NCBI GenBank assembly: GCA_958295645.1
Contig: OY282361.1
Span: 124,001 to 188,000 of the forward strand
Direction of reading: 5' to 3'
Source: Longimicrobiales bacterium
GTDB taxonomy: Bacteria; Gemmatimonadota; Gemmatimonadetes; Longimicrobiales; Gaopeijiaceae
Length of the DNA stretch: 64,000 bases
The notes beneath the pieces are model-generated. The model worked only from the letters and a program-made list of their open reading frames with translations. It made no database searches and was not told the origin of the DNA. Positions 37,554 through 44,227 of the stretch are shown one piece after another. Position 1 is the stretch's first letter. The number at the start of each line of letters is the position of its first letter. The position numbers and the translations under genes were made by a program.

Positions 37554-39119
37554 GTGCGCGGAGCCAAGAGAATCCTGTGGGTGGACGACGAGATCGACCT
37601 CCTGCGCCCGCATCTGCTCTTCCTGCAGCAGCGGGGATACCACGTGGACGCCATTCCGAACGGCGACGACGCGATCGCGCTGCTGCGGCGGCGCTCCTAC
37701 GACCTCGTCCTGCTGGACGAACACATGCCGGGCCGGCGTGGCCTGGACGTCCTGGAGCTGATCCGGCGCGACGACTCGCACGCCCGCGTCGTCATGATCA
37801 CCAAGTCCGAGGAAGACAGGACGATGACGGAGGCGATCGGGCGCTACGCGGAAGACTATCTGGTGAAGCCGACGAGTCCGCGCCAAGTGCTGTCGGTGGT
37901 GACGCGGATCCTGGAGGGTTCGTCGATTCGCCAGCAGCACACGGCCCAGGACTTCGCCGCCCGCTGGCCCGCGCTGGCCCGCCGCCGCGAGGAGACGCCC
38001 TCTGTGGAGGGGTTCGAACGGGCGTACCAGGAGCTGGTCGAATGGCGCCTTCGCATGGAGGCGGCGGGCGAGAAGGGGTTGCTGGACACTCTGGAGTCGC
38101 TGCAGGGCGAACTGCGCCACGACTTCGGCCGCTGGACGGCGCGGCAGTACCCCCGCTGGATGCGCGGCGAAGGCGAGCCGCCGGAGCTGTCGGTCGACGT
38201 GGTGGAGCGGCGGCTGGTGCCCCTCTTGGGATCGGACCCGGTGTTCTTCGTGGTGCTGGACTGCATGAGGCTGGACCAGTGGCGCGCCATCTCGGGACTG
38301 CTGGGCGACATCTTCGAGATCGACGAGGGCGTGCACTGGTCGATCCTGCCGACGGCGACCCCGTACGCGCGCAACGCGCTCTTCTCGGGCCTCTTCCCCG
38401 ACGAGATCGCCAAGCAGCGCCCGGGCTGGTGGGACGGGGTCGGCGACGAGGGGTCGATGAACACCTTCGAGGACGAGTTGCTGCGCGCCCAGCTGCGCCG
38501 GCTCCTGGGCCGGGACGTGCCCGTCCACTACGAGAAGGTCTTCACCGACCGCAATGCGGAGGCGGTGCTGGGACGGGTGCGCTCGGCGGCTTCCAAGCGC
38601 GGCTCCGTCACGGCCCTGGTCTTCAACTTCGTGGACCTGATGACGCACGGGCGCTCCGAATCGCCGATCCTGATGGAGGTGGCGAAGGACGAGGCTGCGT
38701 TGCGCCAGCTCACGCGCTCCTGGTTCGAACGCTCGACGGCCTTCTCGGTGCTCATGGAGGCCGCCCGGCGGGGTTGCCGCGTGCTTCTCACGACGGATCA
38801 CGGCTCCATTCACTGCCGCCGCTCGGCCGTGGTGCGCGCCCGCCGCGGAACGACCGCCAATCTCCGCTACAAGTTCGGCCCCGACCTGCGAGCCGACAGC
38901 GCCACCGCGGCCATGGCCACCGCGCGCGCCGCCGACCTGCGCCTGCCCCCGGGCGAAGGCGGCACGACCTACCTCGTGGCCCTGGAGGACTTCTTCTTCG
39001 TCTACCCGACGCGGCTTCGCGAGTACCGCCGCCGCTACGCCAACTCCTTCCTCCACGGCGGCGCCTCGCCTGAAGAAATGATCGTTCCGGTCGCCTCGCT
39101 CACGCCCCGGCGCCGGTGA
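37554..39119 (+). CDS. porX: PorX-type response regulator with PglZ phosphatase domain
   Basis: The product is 521 aa with a GTG start at 37554. Residues 1-125 form a receiver domain: acidic pair VDDE, phospho-Asp in YDLVLLDEHMPG (about 53), Thr/Ser in MITKSEE, and YLVKPTSPRQVL. The C-terminal two thirds are an alkaline-phosphatase-superfamily PglZ domain with metal-ligand segments VVLDCMRLDQW, FNFVDLMTHGR and TTDHGS. In Bacteroidota, PorX regulates type IX secretion and has phosphodiesterase activity on oligonucleotides; no por/gld genes are in this window, so the role here is open. Its stop overlaps the GTG start of the ABC exporter (GTGA), linking regulation to envelope export. Confidence 0.9.
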   Translation: MRGAKRILWVDDEIDLLRPHLLFLQQRGYHVDAIPNGDDAIALLRRRSYDLVLLDEHMPGRRGLDVLELIRRDDSHARVVMITKSEEDRTMTEAIGRYAEDYLVKPTSPRQVLSVVTRILEGSSIRQQHTAQDFAARWPALARRREETPSVEGFERAYQELVEWRLRMEAAGEKGLLDTLESLQGELRHDFGRWTARQYPRWMRGEGEPPELSVDVVERRLVPLLGSDPVFFVVLDCMRLDQWRAISGLLGDIFEIDEGVHWSILPTATPYARNALFSGLFPDEIAKQRPGWWDGVGDEGSMNTFEDELLRAQLRRLLGRDVPVHYEKVFTDRNAEAVLGRVRSAASKRGSVTALVFNFVDLMTHGRSESPILMEVAKDEAALRQLTRSWFERSTAFSVLMEAARRGCRVLLTTDHGSIHCRRSAVVRARRGTTANLRYKFGPDLRADSATAAMATARAADLRLPPGEGGTTYLVALEDFFFVYPTRLREYRRRYANSFLHGGASPEEMIVPVASLTPRRR

Positions 39120-41023
39120 TCCGACCCCCTGCGCCGCAGAGCCCTGCGCCGCCGTCCCGGTCCGTGCGGAATGCCGCCCCAACCGAGCCCGGCCCTGCGC
39201 GCAAGCGCCCGCCCCGCCCCCGCTACGGGCGAATCCTCGCCTATCTGCGGCCCCACCGCACCGCGCTCGCCTTGGCCGGCTTGGCCGGCGCCGCCTACGC
39301 CGCGCTGGACGCCTTCTCCTTCGTGGCCCTGCTGCCCTTCCTGGCGACGGTGTTCGGAGCCAACGCGGCCCTGGGCCTGCAGGAGGAGCCGACCCGCATC
39401 CGAGCTGCGCTGGAGGCCACGGTGGGCCGCTTCGTCGAGCTGGGCGGCGACCCGCAGACCGTCGTGGGCGGGATCATCCTGTTCATCCTGGCGCTGGTCG
39501 CCTGCAAGAACGTGGTGGACTTCCTGCGGTCGTACCTGTCGGCGAGGGTCGAGCAAGGAGTGGCGCGCGACTTGCGAGACGAAGTGTACGACCACGTCCT
39601 CAAGCTCGATCTGGCGTTCTTCGGGCGCACGCGCACCGGCCAAGTGGTGTCCCGCCTCACGCACGACGTGGAGCAGCTGCGGGCCTTGATCGCCAAGGAG
39701 CTGGTCCAGGCGGTCTCGCACGTCCTGGGGCTGGTGGCGGTGCTGTTCTGGATGACCGAGATATCGTTGCGGCTCACGGCGGCGGCCTTCGTGGTGGTGC
39801 CGCTCACGATGGTGATCTGGGGGCCGCTGGTTCGGAGGCTGCGGCAGCGCGACCGCAGGGCGCTCGACTTGGCGGGCGACCTGGGCGGCCGCATCCAGGA
39901 GACCGTCTCCGCCATCCGCATGGTCAAGTCGGCGGCGGCCGAGGGACAGGAGCGGCGGCGGTTCCAGCGCGTCACGTCCGCCTACTTCAACGCGGTCATG
40001 CGAACCGTCAAGCTGCGCGCCCTGGCGGGGCCGATCACCGAAGTGCTGGTGGCCATGGGCACATCGATCCTGCTCTGGTACGGCGCGAGGATGGTGGTGG
40101 TGGACAACTCCCTCAGCGGCGAAGCGTTCCTCACCTTCATCCTCTTGAGCACGCGCCTCTACGCTCCGGTCAAGTACATGAGCAAGCTGCCCGCGCTGAT
40201 CCAGCCCGGCTTGGTCGGCGCCGAACGCCTCTTCGAGTTCATGGACGCGCCCTCCCGCATCCGCGACAGGGAGGACGCCAAGCCGTTCGCCGGCGTCGGC
40301 GAGGGCATCCGCTACCGGCACGTCGGACTGCAGTACCGCGCGGGCGATTCCGTGCTTCGCGACATGGACTTCTGGGTTCCGAAGGGCACGGTGGTCGCGC
40401 TCGTCGGCCCCAGCGGCGCCGGCAAGACGAGCATCGTGGACCTGCTCGGACGGTTCTACGACGTGACCGAGGGCGCAGTCGAGATCGGAGGCGAGGACGT
40501 GCGGAACTACTCGCTGAGGGAGCTGCGGGGCGCGCTCGGCATCGTGTCGCAGGACACGGTGCTCTTCCACGACACCGTGCATGCGAACATCGCCTACGGG
40601 AAGGACGGAGCGACCGCCGAGCAGGTCGAGCAGGCCGCCCGGGCCGCGCACGCGCACGACTTCGTGGCGACTCTCCCCGACGGCTACGACACCCTGGTGG
40701 GCGAGCGCGGCACGCAGCTATCGGGCGGCCAGCGGCAACGCATCGCCATTGCCCGCGCCGTCTTGCGAGACCCTCCGATCCTCGTGCTCGACGAGGCCAC
40801 CAGCGCACTGGACGCCGAGTCGGAGCACTTGGTTCAGTGCGCCCTCGACCGGCTCCTCGAGGGCCGCACCGTCTTCGTGATCGCGCACCGGCTGTCCACG
40901 ATCCAGCGCGCAGGCCTGATCGTGGTGGTGGACGAGGGGCGCGTGGTTCAGCAAGGCACGCATGCGGAACTCATGGAGGAGGGGGGACTGTACCGCCACC
41001 TTCGCGACATGCAGTTCCGGTGA
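39116..41023 (+). CDS. MsbA-like ABC exporter (fused permease-ATPase)
   Basis: The product is 635 aa with a GTG start overlapping the porX stop. After a Pro-rich N-terminal 35 residues comes an exporter membrane domain of six helices (about 40-350; SARVEQGVARDLRDEVYDHV, FFGRTRTGQVVSRLTHDVEQ). The ATPase domain has Walker A GPSGAGKTS (about 433), the Q-loop in GIVSQDTVLF, signature LSGGQRQR (about 536), Walker B ILVLDEATSALD (about 556) and the H-loop IAHRLSTIQ. It is a homodimeric lipid/LPS flippase-like exporter. A lipid A-type acyltransferase gene directly downstream supports an MsbA role. Confidence 0.9.
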   Translation: MIRPPAPQSPAPPSRSVRNAAPTEPGPARKRPPRPRYGRILAYLRPHRTALALAGLAGAAYAALDAFSFVALLPFLATVFGANAALGLQEEPTRIRAALEATVGRFVELGGDPQTVVGGIILFILALVACKNVVDFLRSYLSARVEQGVARDLRDEVYDHVLKLDLAFFGRTRTGQVVSRLTHDVEQLRALIAKELVQAVSHVLGLVAVLFWMTEISLRLTAAAFVVVPLTMVIWGPLVRRLRQRDRRALDLAGDLGGRIQETVSAIRMVKSAAAEGQERRRFQRVTSAYFNAVMRTVKLRALAGPITEVLVAMGTSILLWYGARMVVVDNSLSGEAFLTFILLSTRLYAPVKYMSKLPALIQPGLVGAERLFEFMDAPSRIRDREDAKPFAGVGEGIRYRHVGLQYRAGDSVLRDMDFWVPKGTVVALVGPSGAGKTSIVDLLGRFYDVTEGAVEIGGEDVRNYSLRELRGALGIVSQDTVLFHDTVHANIAYGKDGATAEQVEQAARAAHAHDFVATLPDGYDTLVGERGTQLSGGQRQRIAIARAVLRDPPILVLDEATSALDAESEHLVQCALDRLLEGRTVFVIAHRLSTIQRAGLIVVVDEGRVVQQGTHAELMEEGGLYRHLRDMQFR

Positions 41024-41090
41024 GCGCCGCCAAGCGAGGGGCGGACGGGCTTGGGCGTTCGGGGTCGGGCGTTCGGGATATGCGGCCGCG

Positions 41091-41984
41091 GTGAGCGGAC
41101 GGAGCGACGCGCGGCACCGGCTGGAGTACGGCGCTGTTCGCCTGTTGGAGGCGACGTGCAACCTCGTGCCGGAGGCGGTGGCGCAGCGGGCGGGGGCCGG
41201 GCTCGGGTGGCTGACCGCTCGTTCGGGCAGGCCTCGTTGGGCGGTGGTGATGGAGCAGCTTCGCGGCGCGTTTCCGGAGGCGGGCGAGGACTGGCGGCGG
41301 GACGTGGCCAGGCGTTGCTACGCGCACTTCGGGGCGGAGGCCGTGGCCGTGCTGCGGTTGTCCCGTCTGGGACTGGACGGCGTGCACGAGCGAACGGAAG
41401 TCGTCGGAAGCGAGGTGCTGGAGGCGGCCAGGAAGCATCCGACCGGAGCTGTCATCGTCACCGGACACGTCGGGAACTGGGAGCTCTGCGGCGCGGCCTT
41501 GGTGGCGGCGGGCCTGCCCATGGACGTGATCGCGGCCCGCCAGCGGAACCTGTACTTCGACCGCTACATCACGCGGCGCCGGGCGGATCTGGGGATGACG
41601 ATAATCCCGCGCGAGCAGGCGCGGCGCCGCGTGGTCGAAGTGCTCAGGACGGGCAAGTCGGTGGGCATCGTGGGCGACCAGGACGCGCGGGACGCGGGCA
41701 TCTTCGTGGACTTCTTCGGCCGGCCGGCGGCCACGGCGCGCGGACCCGCCGTGCTGGCCCGCCGGGCTCGGGCGCTCATGGGCACGGCTTTCCTCACGCG
41801 CCTGCCCGGAGTTCGCCTGCGCTACCGCCTCGAGATCGAGGCCCTCGATTCCCGGCTGGGCGTGAACGCCCTCACGCAGGCCTGCGCCTCTCGCCTGGAA
41901 GCCAAGATACGCGAGCATCCCGAGCAGTACTTCTGGATGCACCGGCGATGGAAGACCACGCCCCCGGAGCCGCCTACGGCCTGA
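41091..41984 (+). CDS. Lipid A biosynthesis acyltransferase (LpxL/HtrB family)
   Basis: The product is 297 aa. GTG 41091 is chosen because homology begins at once (HRLEYGAVRLLEATCNLVPE); the frame is open upstream over the end of the ABC gene. The catalytic HX4E motif is GHVGNWELCG (about 125-130). Other family marks are the segment VVMEQLRGAFPE, VGIVGDQDARDAGIFVDFFG and the C-terminal EQYFWMHRRWKT. It transfers a secondary acyl chain to lipid A precursors at the inner membrane, implying an LPS-type outer membrane. It is in the same strand run as the exporter. Confidence 0.9.
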   Translation: MSGRSDARHRLEYGAVRLLEATCNLVPEAVAQRAGAGLGWLTARSGRPRWAVVMEQLRGAFPEAGEDWRRDVARRCYAHFGAEAVAVLRLSRLGLDGVHERTEVVGSEVLEAARKHPTGAVIVTGHVGNWELCGAALVAAGLPMDVIAARQRNLYFDRYITRRRADLGMTIIPREQARRRVVEVLRTGKSVGIVGDQDARDAGIFVDFFGRPAATARGPAVLARRARALMGTAFLTRLPGVRLRYRLEIEALDSRLGVNALTQACASRLEAKIREHPEQYFWMHRRWKTTPPEPPTA

Positions 41985-42146: not shown

Positions 42147-43676
42147 ATGATCTACATATGCATTCCCGCCCGCGACGAAGTCCGCACCGTAGGGCTCCTG
42201 CTGTGGAGGATCCGGGAGACCATGGCCGCTCTCGGCCGGGACTACGAGGTCCTGGTGCTGGACGACGGCTCCCGCGACGGCACCCGCAGACTGGTCGACA
42301 CGTACAGGCGGGTCATGCCTCTGGCCTTGATCGAACACGACCGGCCCTGCGGCTACGGACCGGCGGTGGAGCGCTTGCTGCGCGAGGCGGTCGGCCGCGC
42401 CCGCTATCCCAAGAGGGACGCCGTCGCGGTCGTGCAGGCCGACTTCACCGATCCCCCGGAGCACTTGGCCGCATTGGTCAAGACGATGGAGGGCGGCGCG
42501 GACATCGTGGCCAGCGCGCCCTCCGGCCCGGCGCCGCGGCCGGTTCGTTGGGGACGCAAGCTGGCGGAATTCGCGCTGGGGAAGCGGCAGCGCTCCGCCC
42601 TCGGCGCAGGGGACCCCCTGTGCGGCTTTCGCATCTACCGCGCGATGGTGGCCAAGAGCGCGCTGGACGCCTCGCCGGGACGGCTCCTGCGTTCCCGCGA
42701 CCCCTGGGCGGCCAACGCCGAGCTCTACGCCAAGCTGGCGCCCTTCGCCCGGCGGTTGGCGGCGGCGCCCGTGCAGCTGCGCTGGGACGTCCGCCGTCGC
42801 AAGAGCCGGGCGCGGCCTCTCGTCGCCGCCCGCCAACTCCTGCGCGTCCGGCGACTTGCGGCCGCCGTCGTCCTCTGGTCGTCGCTGGGCCTCGGCGGCC
42901 TGCCCGGCGCCGCCCTAGGCCAAGCCTTCGTGCGGGACACCCTGAGCGCTTCCGTCCCCGCGCCGGCCCGCATTCCCTTCGCGGTTGGCGAAAGACTGCG
43001 CTACAAGGTCAAGTTCGGGATATTCAACGTGGGCGAGGGCTGGATGTCGATACCGCGAATCGATACCGTCTCCAGCTTCCCGACGTATGCGGTGGAGTGG
43101 CATATCAAAGGCGGGGTCCCGTTCTACAAGATGGATTCCAAGTTCTACAGCTGGATGGACGTGCGGACGCTCGTTTCCCGGCGCTTCGTCAAAGACCAGA
43201 ACGAAGGCGGACGCGAGACGTACAAGGAATTCATGTTCTTCCCGGAAGACCGGCGGTTTCAGCGGATCGACTACGACACCGCGGGCGTCATGCCCACCTC
43301 TCTTCCGCTGGACGACGTCGCCTTCGTCTACTTCGCGCGAACGCTGCTGTTGAACGTCGGCGACACGCTCACATACAACCGTTTCTACAAGGAAGAAGGC
43401 AATCCCGTCGTCATCCGCGTTCTGCGCAGGGATCAGCGAAAGGTCGGCGCGGGGAAGTTCAACACGATCGTCGTGCAGCCCATCATTCGCACCGACGGCT
43501 TGTTCGCGGAAGGCGGCCGCGCCGAAATCCACTTCTCCGACGACGACAACCGCTATCTCGTGTACATGGAAACGCACATAGCCGGCGGCATAAGCCTGTC
43601 GCTCCATTTGGAAGAAGTACAGTCGGGCGGACCCGCCACGAGTGCGACCGAGGTTGTCGGAGGAGGAAAGCGCTGA
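42147..43676 (+). CDS. Glycosyltransferase family 2 fused to a periplasmic DUF3108 domain
   Basis: The product is 509 aa with an ATG at 42147. Residues 1-225 are a GT-A glycosyltransferase: YICIPARDEVRTVG, DYEVLVLDDGSRDGTRR, then VVQADFTDPPEHL and GDPLCGFRIYR. A single hydrophobic segment follows (about 236-258, LAAAVVLWSSLGLGGLPGAA, ending in ALGQ like a signal sequence). Residues about 270-490 are a DUF3108 beta-domain: RIPFAVGERLRYKVKFGIFN, YNRFYKEEGNPVVIRVLRR, FNTIVVQPIIRTDGLFAEGGRAEIHFS with SDD. DUF3108 proteins are normally separate and exported. The topology would put the transferase in the cytosol and the DUF3108 domain in the periplasm. No stop or frameshift separates them. Confidence 0.82.
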   Translation: MIYICIPARDEVRTVGLLLWRIRETMAALGRDYEVLVLDDGSRDGTRRLVDTYRRVMPLALIEHDRPCGYGPAVERLLREAVGRARYPKRDAVAVVQADFTDPPEHLAALVKTMEGGADIVASAPSGPAPRPVRWGRKLAEFALGKRQRSALGAGDPLCGFRIYRAMVAKSALDASPGRLLRSRDPWAANAELYAKLAPFARRLAAAPVQLRWDVRRRKSRARPLVAARQLLRVRRLAAAVVLWSSLGLGGLPGAALGQAFVRDTLSASVPAPARIPFAVGERLRYKVKFGIFNVGEGWMSIPRIDTVSSFPTYAVEWHIKGGVPFYKMDSKFYSWMDVRTLVSRRFVKDQNEGGRETYKEFMFFPEDRRFQRIDYDTAGVMPTSLPLDDVAFVYFARTLLLNVGDTLTYNRFYKEEGNPVVIRVLRRDQRKVGAGKFNTIVVQPIIRTDGLFAEGGRAEIHFSDDDNRYLVYMETHIAGGISLSLHLEEVQSGGPATSATEVVGGGKR

Positions 43677-44227
43677 AGCCTGGGCGAACTCGGCTGCGGC
43701 TTCGCAGCGCCTGGATCCTGGCCGCGGTTTTCTTCTGGTTCGCCCGCCCGACGGCTGCATCGCTGTGGCTGGGCGCGGGCGTCACGTTGCCGGGCATCTT
43801 GTTGCGGGCCTGGGCCGCGGGCACGCTGGAGAAGAACTGGCGGCTGACGATCGCGGGCCCTTACGCCTTCACGCGCAATCCGCTCTATCTCGGGAGCTTC
43901 GTCGTGGGCCTGGGCGCTTCGGCCGCGGCCGCTCTGCCTTGGTTCGCGGTGGTCTTCTTGGCCTTCTTCGCCTGGATGTACCTCCCCGCGATGAGGTCGG
44001 AGGCCCAGAGCCTCGAGGAGGCCTTCGGCGACGAGTACGTGCGCTACGGCGAGCGCGTGCCGCTGCTCTTCCCCTGCCGTGCGCCGTACCGGACCGGCGA
44101 CGAGACGTCGTTCTCCATTCGGCGCTACGCCCGCAACAAGGAATACGAGGCGCTGCTCGGCGCCGTCGCCGGGTTCGCCGTCTTGGTCGTGAAGGCCGCG
44201 TACCTGGGTCTGATCTTCGGCGGCTGA
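43673..44227 (+). CDS. ICMT/phospholipid methyltransferase-like membrane protein, probable CTG start
   Basis: The product is 184 aa. The frame has no ATG, GTG or TTG until about codon 41, in the middle of conserved sequence. A CTG at 43673 overlaps the previous stop (CTGA) and is preceded by AGGAGGAAAG at ideal distance, so initiation at CTG is likely. Membrane helices alternate with the signature of isoprenylcysteine carboxyl methyltransferase-like enzymes: GPYAFTRNPLYLGSFVVGLG, then RSEAQSLEEAFGDEYVRYGERVP. It would methylate a small-molecule, lipid or prenylated substrate with S-adenosylmethionine; the substrate is unknown. Translation is coupled to the GT2-DUF3108 gene. Confidence 0.82.
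   Translation: MKPGRTRLRLRSAWILAAVFFWFARPTAASLWLGAGVTLPGILLRAWAAGTLEKNWRLTIAGPYAFTRNPLYLGSFVVGLGASAAAALPWFAVVFLAFFAWMYLPAMRSEAQSLEEAFGDEYVRYGERVPLLFPCRAPYRTGDETSFSIRRYARNKEYEALLGAVAGFAVLVVKAAYLGLIFGG

Follow-up and report, generated by a model that had tools for sequence, protein, structure and literature searches.

We analysed a stretch of 64,000 nucleotides (hereafter the window) from the genome of a Longimicrobiales bacterium (Gemmatimonadota; assembly GCA_958295645.1, contig OY282361.1, positions 124,001 to 188,000), which is a single contig of 2.89 Mb and is 95.7% complete. At positions 42147-43676 of the window, on the plus strand, lies a gene of 509 codons that starts with ATG and encodes a GT2 glycosyltransferase and a DUF3108 domain in one open frame. 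The genes described around it are on the same strand. Upstream are genes for a protein with a response regulator receiver and a PglZ domain (37554-39119), an ABC exporter with fused membrane and ATPase domains (39116-41023; here labelled MsbA-type), and a lipid A acyltransferase family protein (40962-41984; PF03279, labelled LpxL-type), the true start of which is probably inside the open reading frame. We take the receiver-PglZ protein to be PorX-like; PorX is a regulator in the type 9 secretion of Bacteroidota. The next gene downstream (43673-44227) encodes a PEMT/ICMT-type methyltransferase, and its start codon was assigned by eye: no usual start codon seems to be present at the expected start, and a CTG after GGAGGAGGAAAGCG is the likely start, overlapping the stop codon of the fused gene by 4 bases. 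A preliminary description of this DNA had placed the fused gene in an LPS-type gene run, and the ABC exporter and lipid A acyltransferase family genes upstream and the PEMT-type gene downstream support an envelope gene run.

Within the fused gene, the GT2 domain (PF00535) covers residues 4-167 (42156-42647, plus strand; E 7e-14, 52.5 bits against a Pfam gathering cut-off of 23.3). The GT2 part ends in a basic C-terminal tail, RWDVRRRKSRARPLVAARQLLRVRR (residues 212-236; 42780-42854, plus strand), which may act as an n-region for the signal-peptide-like stretch that follows, LAAAVVLWSSLGLGGLPGAALG (residues 237-258; 42855-42920, plus strand), recognised by its pattern. Residues 233-258 between the two domains consist of RVRR and this stretch, and QAFVRD comes next. 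The rest of the protein (42921-43673, plus strand) is proposed to be periplasmic and includes the DUF3108 domain (PF11306) at residues 285-481 (42999-43589), where the match extends over profile positions 1-202 of 209 (E 3.5e-24, 86.2 bits against a Pfam gathering cut-off of 26). There are no internal stops in the 509-residue frame. The single uninterrupted frame and the order of GT2, embedded signal sequence and DUF3108 given in the preliminary description were therefore recovered, with the hydrophobic stretch located between the two Pfam domains. Against NCBIfam, the fused protein gave only glycosyltransferase matches, all far below the cut-offs. In the host genome it was matched at four places, the three others weakly and in the GT2 part only. 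The structure model of the full chain (pTM 0.49; pLDDT below 50 in the linker at residues 240-274) is uninformative on how the two domains are placed relative to each other, because of this low pTM and the low-confidence linker.

Among solved structures, the closest in sequence to the GT2 part are the polyprenyl-phosphate glycosyltransferases ArnC, sll0501 (which we take to be GtrB), and DPMS. The GT2 part differs from these enzymes in its DxD motif and, as judged by eye, in that its separate form has no C-terminal membrane helix. Among the 102 rows compared, the first Asp of the motif is replaced by Q in 77, H in 24, and R in one, which makes Q or H the residue in 101 of the 102, and the second Asp is present in all 102. 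Residue Q97 of the window protein aligns with the first Asp of the DAD motif of ArnC. Given QxD or HxD instead of DxD, we do not file this GT2 as a member of the ArnC/GtrB/DPMS group, and with the first Asp missing its activity is not certain. The window protein also has P186 at a position occupied by G in 100 of the 102 GT2 rows.

When modelled alone, the DUF3108 part reached a pLDDT of 78.5, and the model predicts an EipB/LolA-like beta barrel. Its top structural neighbour was EipB of Brucella (6ntr; Z 14.7, rmsd 3.5 over 192 residues), with chain Xh of 9fqr, from the bovine sperm axoneme, on par (Z 14.5 over 204 residues). Further neighbours were LolA-type, VioE, and 3fzx rows with Z values of 9.5 or less (3fzx, 9.4; LolA 1iwl, 9.2; LolA-type rows, 7 to 9.5). 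A Foldseek search also returned 4fvs, 3fzx, LprG, VioE, and LolA; no TM-score among the best 50 rows exceeded 0.50. The predicted fold is thus what the DUF3108 part would have in common with EipB (DUF1849), LolA/LolB, and the YmcC-like 3fzx, whereas in sequence it gave no match to them: searches against solved structures, which can miss distant relatives, found no EipB- or LolA-type protein up to an E value of 1 and nothing useful (best E 0.3 for the single sequence and 0.24 for a nine-row profile). In excerpts of one paper, EipB is described as a periplasmic barrel that resembles LolA/LolB, the loss of which leads to sensitivity to envelope-disrupting compounds and the exact role of which is unknown (PMC10787603). 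An excerpt of another paper describes DUF3108 proteins as outer-membrane barrels with a YmcC fold (3FZX) (PMC4364669), a placing that differs from the periplasmic one proposed here. The excerpted literature that names DUF3108 contains no description of a GT2 fusion.

The pairing of these two domains is widespread among relatives. The first search for relatives gave matches in all 58 genomes (58/58), and the 10 named relatives found were Gemmatimonadetes/Gemmatimonadota MAGs. Of 68 scanned loci, 50 carried a GT2 followed on the same strand by DUF3108, and the two shared one frame in 4 of the 50 (the window, G038, G026, and G008); several of the 18 loci lacking the pair were short or at contig ends. 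Stop-free fusions that span both domains were found in at least 12 of the 121 genomes of the window's family and in at least 36 of 395 phylum genomes, both counts being lower bounds among matches listed to about E 3e-60 (family) and 2e-64 (phylum). Taken together, at least 38 different genomes among 429 (G000-G428) have such a fusion. The domains are accordingly separate in the normal case, as the preliminary description had stated, and the search for the same two-domain order that it had proposed has a positive outcome. Six further rows among the phylum matches (G053, G037, G092, G254, G212, and G310) span both domains in a single frame that is broken by one or two stops. No fusion was found in a sample of 22 genomes from other families and one other class (six from the latter), which had been chosen partly for looking unfused in the phylum search (four f4 genomes for certain); by hand count, 18 of these have both genes on one strand within approximately 1.3 kb, and the adjacent pair was not seen in the other four (G161, G170, G186, and G240).

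The separate and fused forms have the same domains, in the same order, with the same kind of signal peptide before DUF3108, and in the window's family they have mostly the same neighbours. They differ in that the fused form lacks the intervening stop, start, and ribosome site and would yield one precursor. At separate loci, an in-frame DUF3108 start overlaps the glycosyltransferase stop by 4 bases in at least 25 of 46 cases (counted by hand, with the near-copies L035/L051 and L037/L053 included); such an overlap is a usual sign of translational coupling. Two variant arrangements were also observed. Four loci from four genomes with genus code g25 (L050, L117, L121, and L123) have two tandem DUF3108 stretches behind the GT2 gene, and five loci of families f2 and f3 (L063, L072, L073, L080, and L086) have a separate GT2 with an R/P/A-rich C-terminal tail of up to approximately 330 residues before the DUF3108 gene.

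To describe the junction, we read the fused genes of 37 of the 38 genomes directly (all except that of G253) and compared them with 65 separate loci; these statistics cover all 102 loci, including near-copies and some genomes taken from two collections. All 37 fused genes keep a signal-like stretch between the domains. The best 12-residue hydropathy averaged 2.38 in fused (n=37) and 2.40 in separate genes (n=65). According to one hand-made pattern (AxA|Q-like; small-x-small-Q), a cleavage-type ending is present in 33 of 37 fused genes (11.2 expected by shuffling) and 54 of 65 separate ones (21.2 expected). The ending of the window's own stretch, ALG|Q, scores in this AxA-type test, and the gene combines a single frame with an internal signal peptide. 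The misses were L046 (AAA|EQ), L145 (LSP|Q), and L141 and L147, for which the script took another hydrophobic stretch and for which both the stretch and an A|Q ending are visible by eye. The net charge just before the stretch averages +3.4 in fused and +2.2 in separate genes. The uncharged run of the fused genes has a median length of 17 residues and a length of 12 in six f4 rows; in the 35 rows with the right stretch it is 12-23 residues long.

While the signal has been kept, the start and ribosome site of the second gene are mostly lost in the fused genes. An ATG near the signal was found in 7 of 37 fused genes compared with 57 of 65 separate ones, and a start there that has an SD-like match in 9 of 37 compared with 54 of 65. 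The fused gene of the window has a single in-frame start within reach, a GTG placed 29 codons before the signal core and lacking an SD-like match. The retention of the signal together with the loss of most translation starts favours a single precursor from which the second half is exported, and disfavours internal initiation.

An uncharged run of such length with such an ending is the typical look of signal peptidase I substrates, and in the window protein the cut is predicted from sequence to fall between residues 258 and 259 (ALG|QA). We propose that a pair found across the phylum, a cytoplasmic GT2 and an exported DUF3108 protein, lost the intervening stop, start, and ribosome site at this locus. 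One ribosome would then make one precursor, in which the GT2 would fold in the cytoplasm with its basic tail serving as the n-region, and the retained signal peptide of DUF3108 would thread the second half through Sec. The most likely next step is a cut by signal peptidase I after ALG, which would leave the GT2 on the inner membrane via the remaining hydrophobic stretch and set free a periplasmic DUF3108 barrel. We regard it as reasonably probable that a single precursor is made in which the GT2 stays inside, the internal signal directs DUF3108 into Sec export, and signal peptidase I probably cuts the chain; this topology, export, and cleavage are inferred from the sequence features described above. 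A comparable case is FbcH, the cytochrome b/c1 precursor of Bradyrhizobium, in which signal peptidase cleaves the chain next to an internal signal. The two cases would have in common one precursor for two envelope proteins and an internal signal peptide. They differ in the proteins involved, in that cleavage is shown for FbcH and predicted for GT2-DUF3108, and in that the GT2-DUF3108 fusion arose several times.

The preliminary description had one membrane helix between the two domains; that this helix ties them together for good is not supported. In such an arrangement, an uncut signal anchor would hold one mature chain, with the GT2 inside and DUF3108 outside, and the product would be passed across. 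The uninterrupted chain is consistent with this, as are the net charge of +3.4 before the stretch, which fits an N-in topology, and the fact that the related ArnC/GtrB/DPMS enzymes are membrane-held. However, the uncharged run is short, and an AxA|Q ending of the cleavage type, which an anchor does not need, is found in the fused genes at close to its frequency in the separate form. This signal-peptide form makes two mature proteins likelier than one tethered chain, and we consider a permanent tether rather unlikely. A restart of the ribosome within the fused frame, by which DUF3108 would be made separately, appears improbable to a greater degree: in-frame starts that lie near the signal and have an SD-like match do occur in nine of the 37 fused genes, but they are far rarer than in separate genes, and the lone GTG within reach in the window, 29 codons before the signal core, is devoid of such a match.

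The GT2-DUF3108 fusion has recurred in the phylum. We built a tree of 87 rows from the GT2 and DUF3108 columns, with the junction left out and 15 of the 102 rows dropped as more than 93% identical. On this tree, which is a quick tree with less sure starred branches, the fused or separate state changes nine times, with eight changes forced by starred branches, compared with 25.6 for shuffled labels. AU tests rejected a single clade in each of three sets: the 31 fused rows together (p 3e-62), the 10 fused rows of family f1, to which the window belongs (p 6e-4; 50-row test, no mixture model), and the 4 fused rows in a careful tree of 23 rows from the surroundings of the window (p 1.9e-5; at least three changes are forced on this tree). 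A single ancestral fusion forming one clade is rejected by the 87-row tree and these AU tests. The row nearest to the window, L048, is separate and has 61% identity to it, and in family f4 nineteen fused rows form one group with a support of 100. The change counts carry no direction, and repeated splitting of an ancestral fusion, instead of repeated joining, could formally account for them; joining is favoured by the absence of fusions from the 22 picked genomes, which include six of another class and were chosen partly as unfused-looking. Long end branches were observed in the fused rows L049, L153, and L156 and in the window (0.45-0.89, compared with medians of 0.19-0.21), and also in the separate rows L078, L086, and L079.

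An assembly or sequencing error, or a meaningless local loss of a stop in one MAG, is very improbable: the window's own fusion event is indeed known from one genome, and its nearest row is separate, but similar fusions are found in many other genomes, including the f4 group in which every row is fused, and a one-base change cannot give back the usual arrangement. Between 42700 and 42990, frames 0 and 2 have no stops and the first stop of frame 1 is at 42916, on the 3' side of the hydrophobic stretch. The interval 42772-42929 has one ATG, GTG, or TTG over all plus-strand frames (TTG at 42856, frame 1) and none in the fused frame. These stop and start positions disfavour a one-base error, because they leave no insertion or deletion of one base, and hence no missed stop or indel artefact of this kind, that would recreate the two-gene arrangement of the relatives in which DUF3108 has its own start and signal. 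The preliminary description had held that a conserved stop between the domains in relatives would mark the window as a read-through or error. Such a stop is present in most relatives; it is not a sign of error here, because the fusion recurs across several lineages.

As to function, it is possible that the GT2 makes a lipid-linked sugar that DUF3108 binds or carries, an idea drawn tentatively from the protein families, the predicted fold, and the locus. On the cytoplasmic face, the GT2 would charge a lipid with a sugar; in the periplasm, the product would be bound or carried by the LolA/EipB-like barrel. We also suggest, with similar caution, that approximately nine times by parsimony a translationally coupled gene pair may have turned into a self-splitting precursor for two compartments, the signal of which would export the carrier, leave the enzyme membrane-bound, and give an exact 1:1 output of the lipid-sugar enzyme on the inside and its lipid carrier on the outside. 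What is new here is probably the recurrent fusion of a conserved gene pair around an internal, probably cleavable signal. The approximately nine state changes of one gene pair offer a natural replicate series on why operon genes fuse, and on how export can stay unblocked when an exported protein is joined to a cytoplasmic enzyme. In addition, DUF3108, which is of unknown function according to Pfam and is seldom named in the literature searched, is tied to a glycosyltransferase across the whole phylum, which makes a role in lipid-sugar handling directly testable.

The gene neighbourhood was compared among 75 loci with at least 2.5 kb upstream, a set in which short flanks hide some matches. Same-strand matches to the window genes were found for the MsbA-type gene at 44 of these loci, the LpxL-type gene at 51, the PorX-like gene at 40, and the PEMT-like gene at 31. 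For the 30 fused loci among the 75, the corresponding numbers were 9, 9, 9, and 6. PorX-, MsbA-, LpxL-, and PEMT-type genes were not found near any of the fused f4 loci with enough flank (21/21), and the link to lipid A is therefore not general. What the loci have in common is an envelope setting with glycosyl transfer, rather than a single fixed operon for lipid A. Two fused f4 loci have a gene for a GT4-type glycosyltransferase directly upstream. Also in this family (L136:3484-4446), the fused gene is overlapped at its end by an uncharacterised frame of 321 aa that gave no Pfam match.
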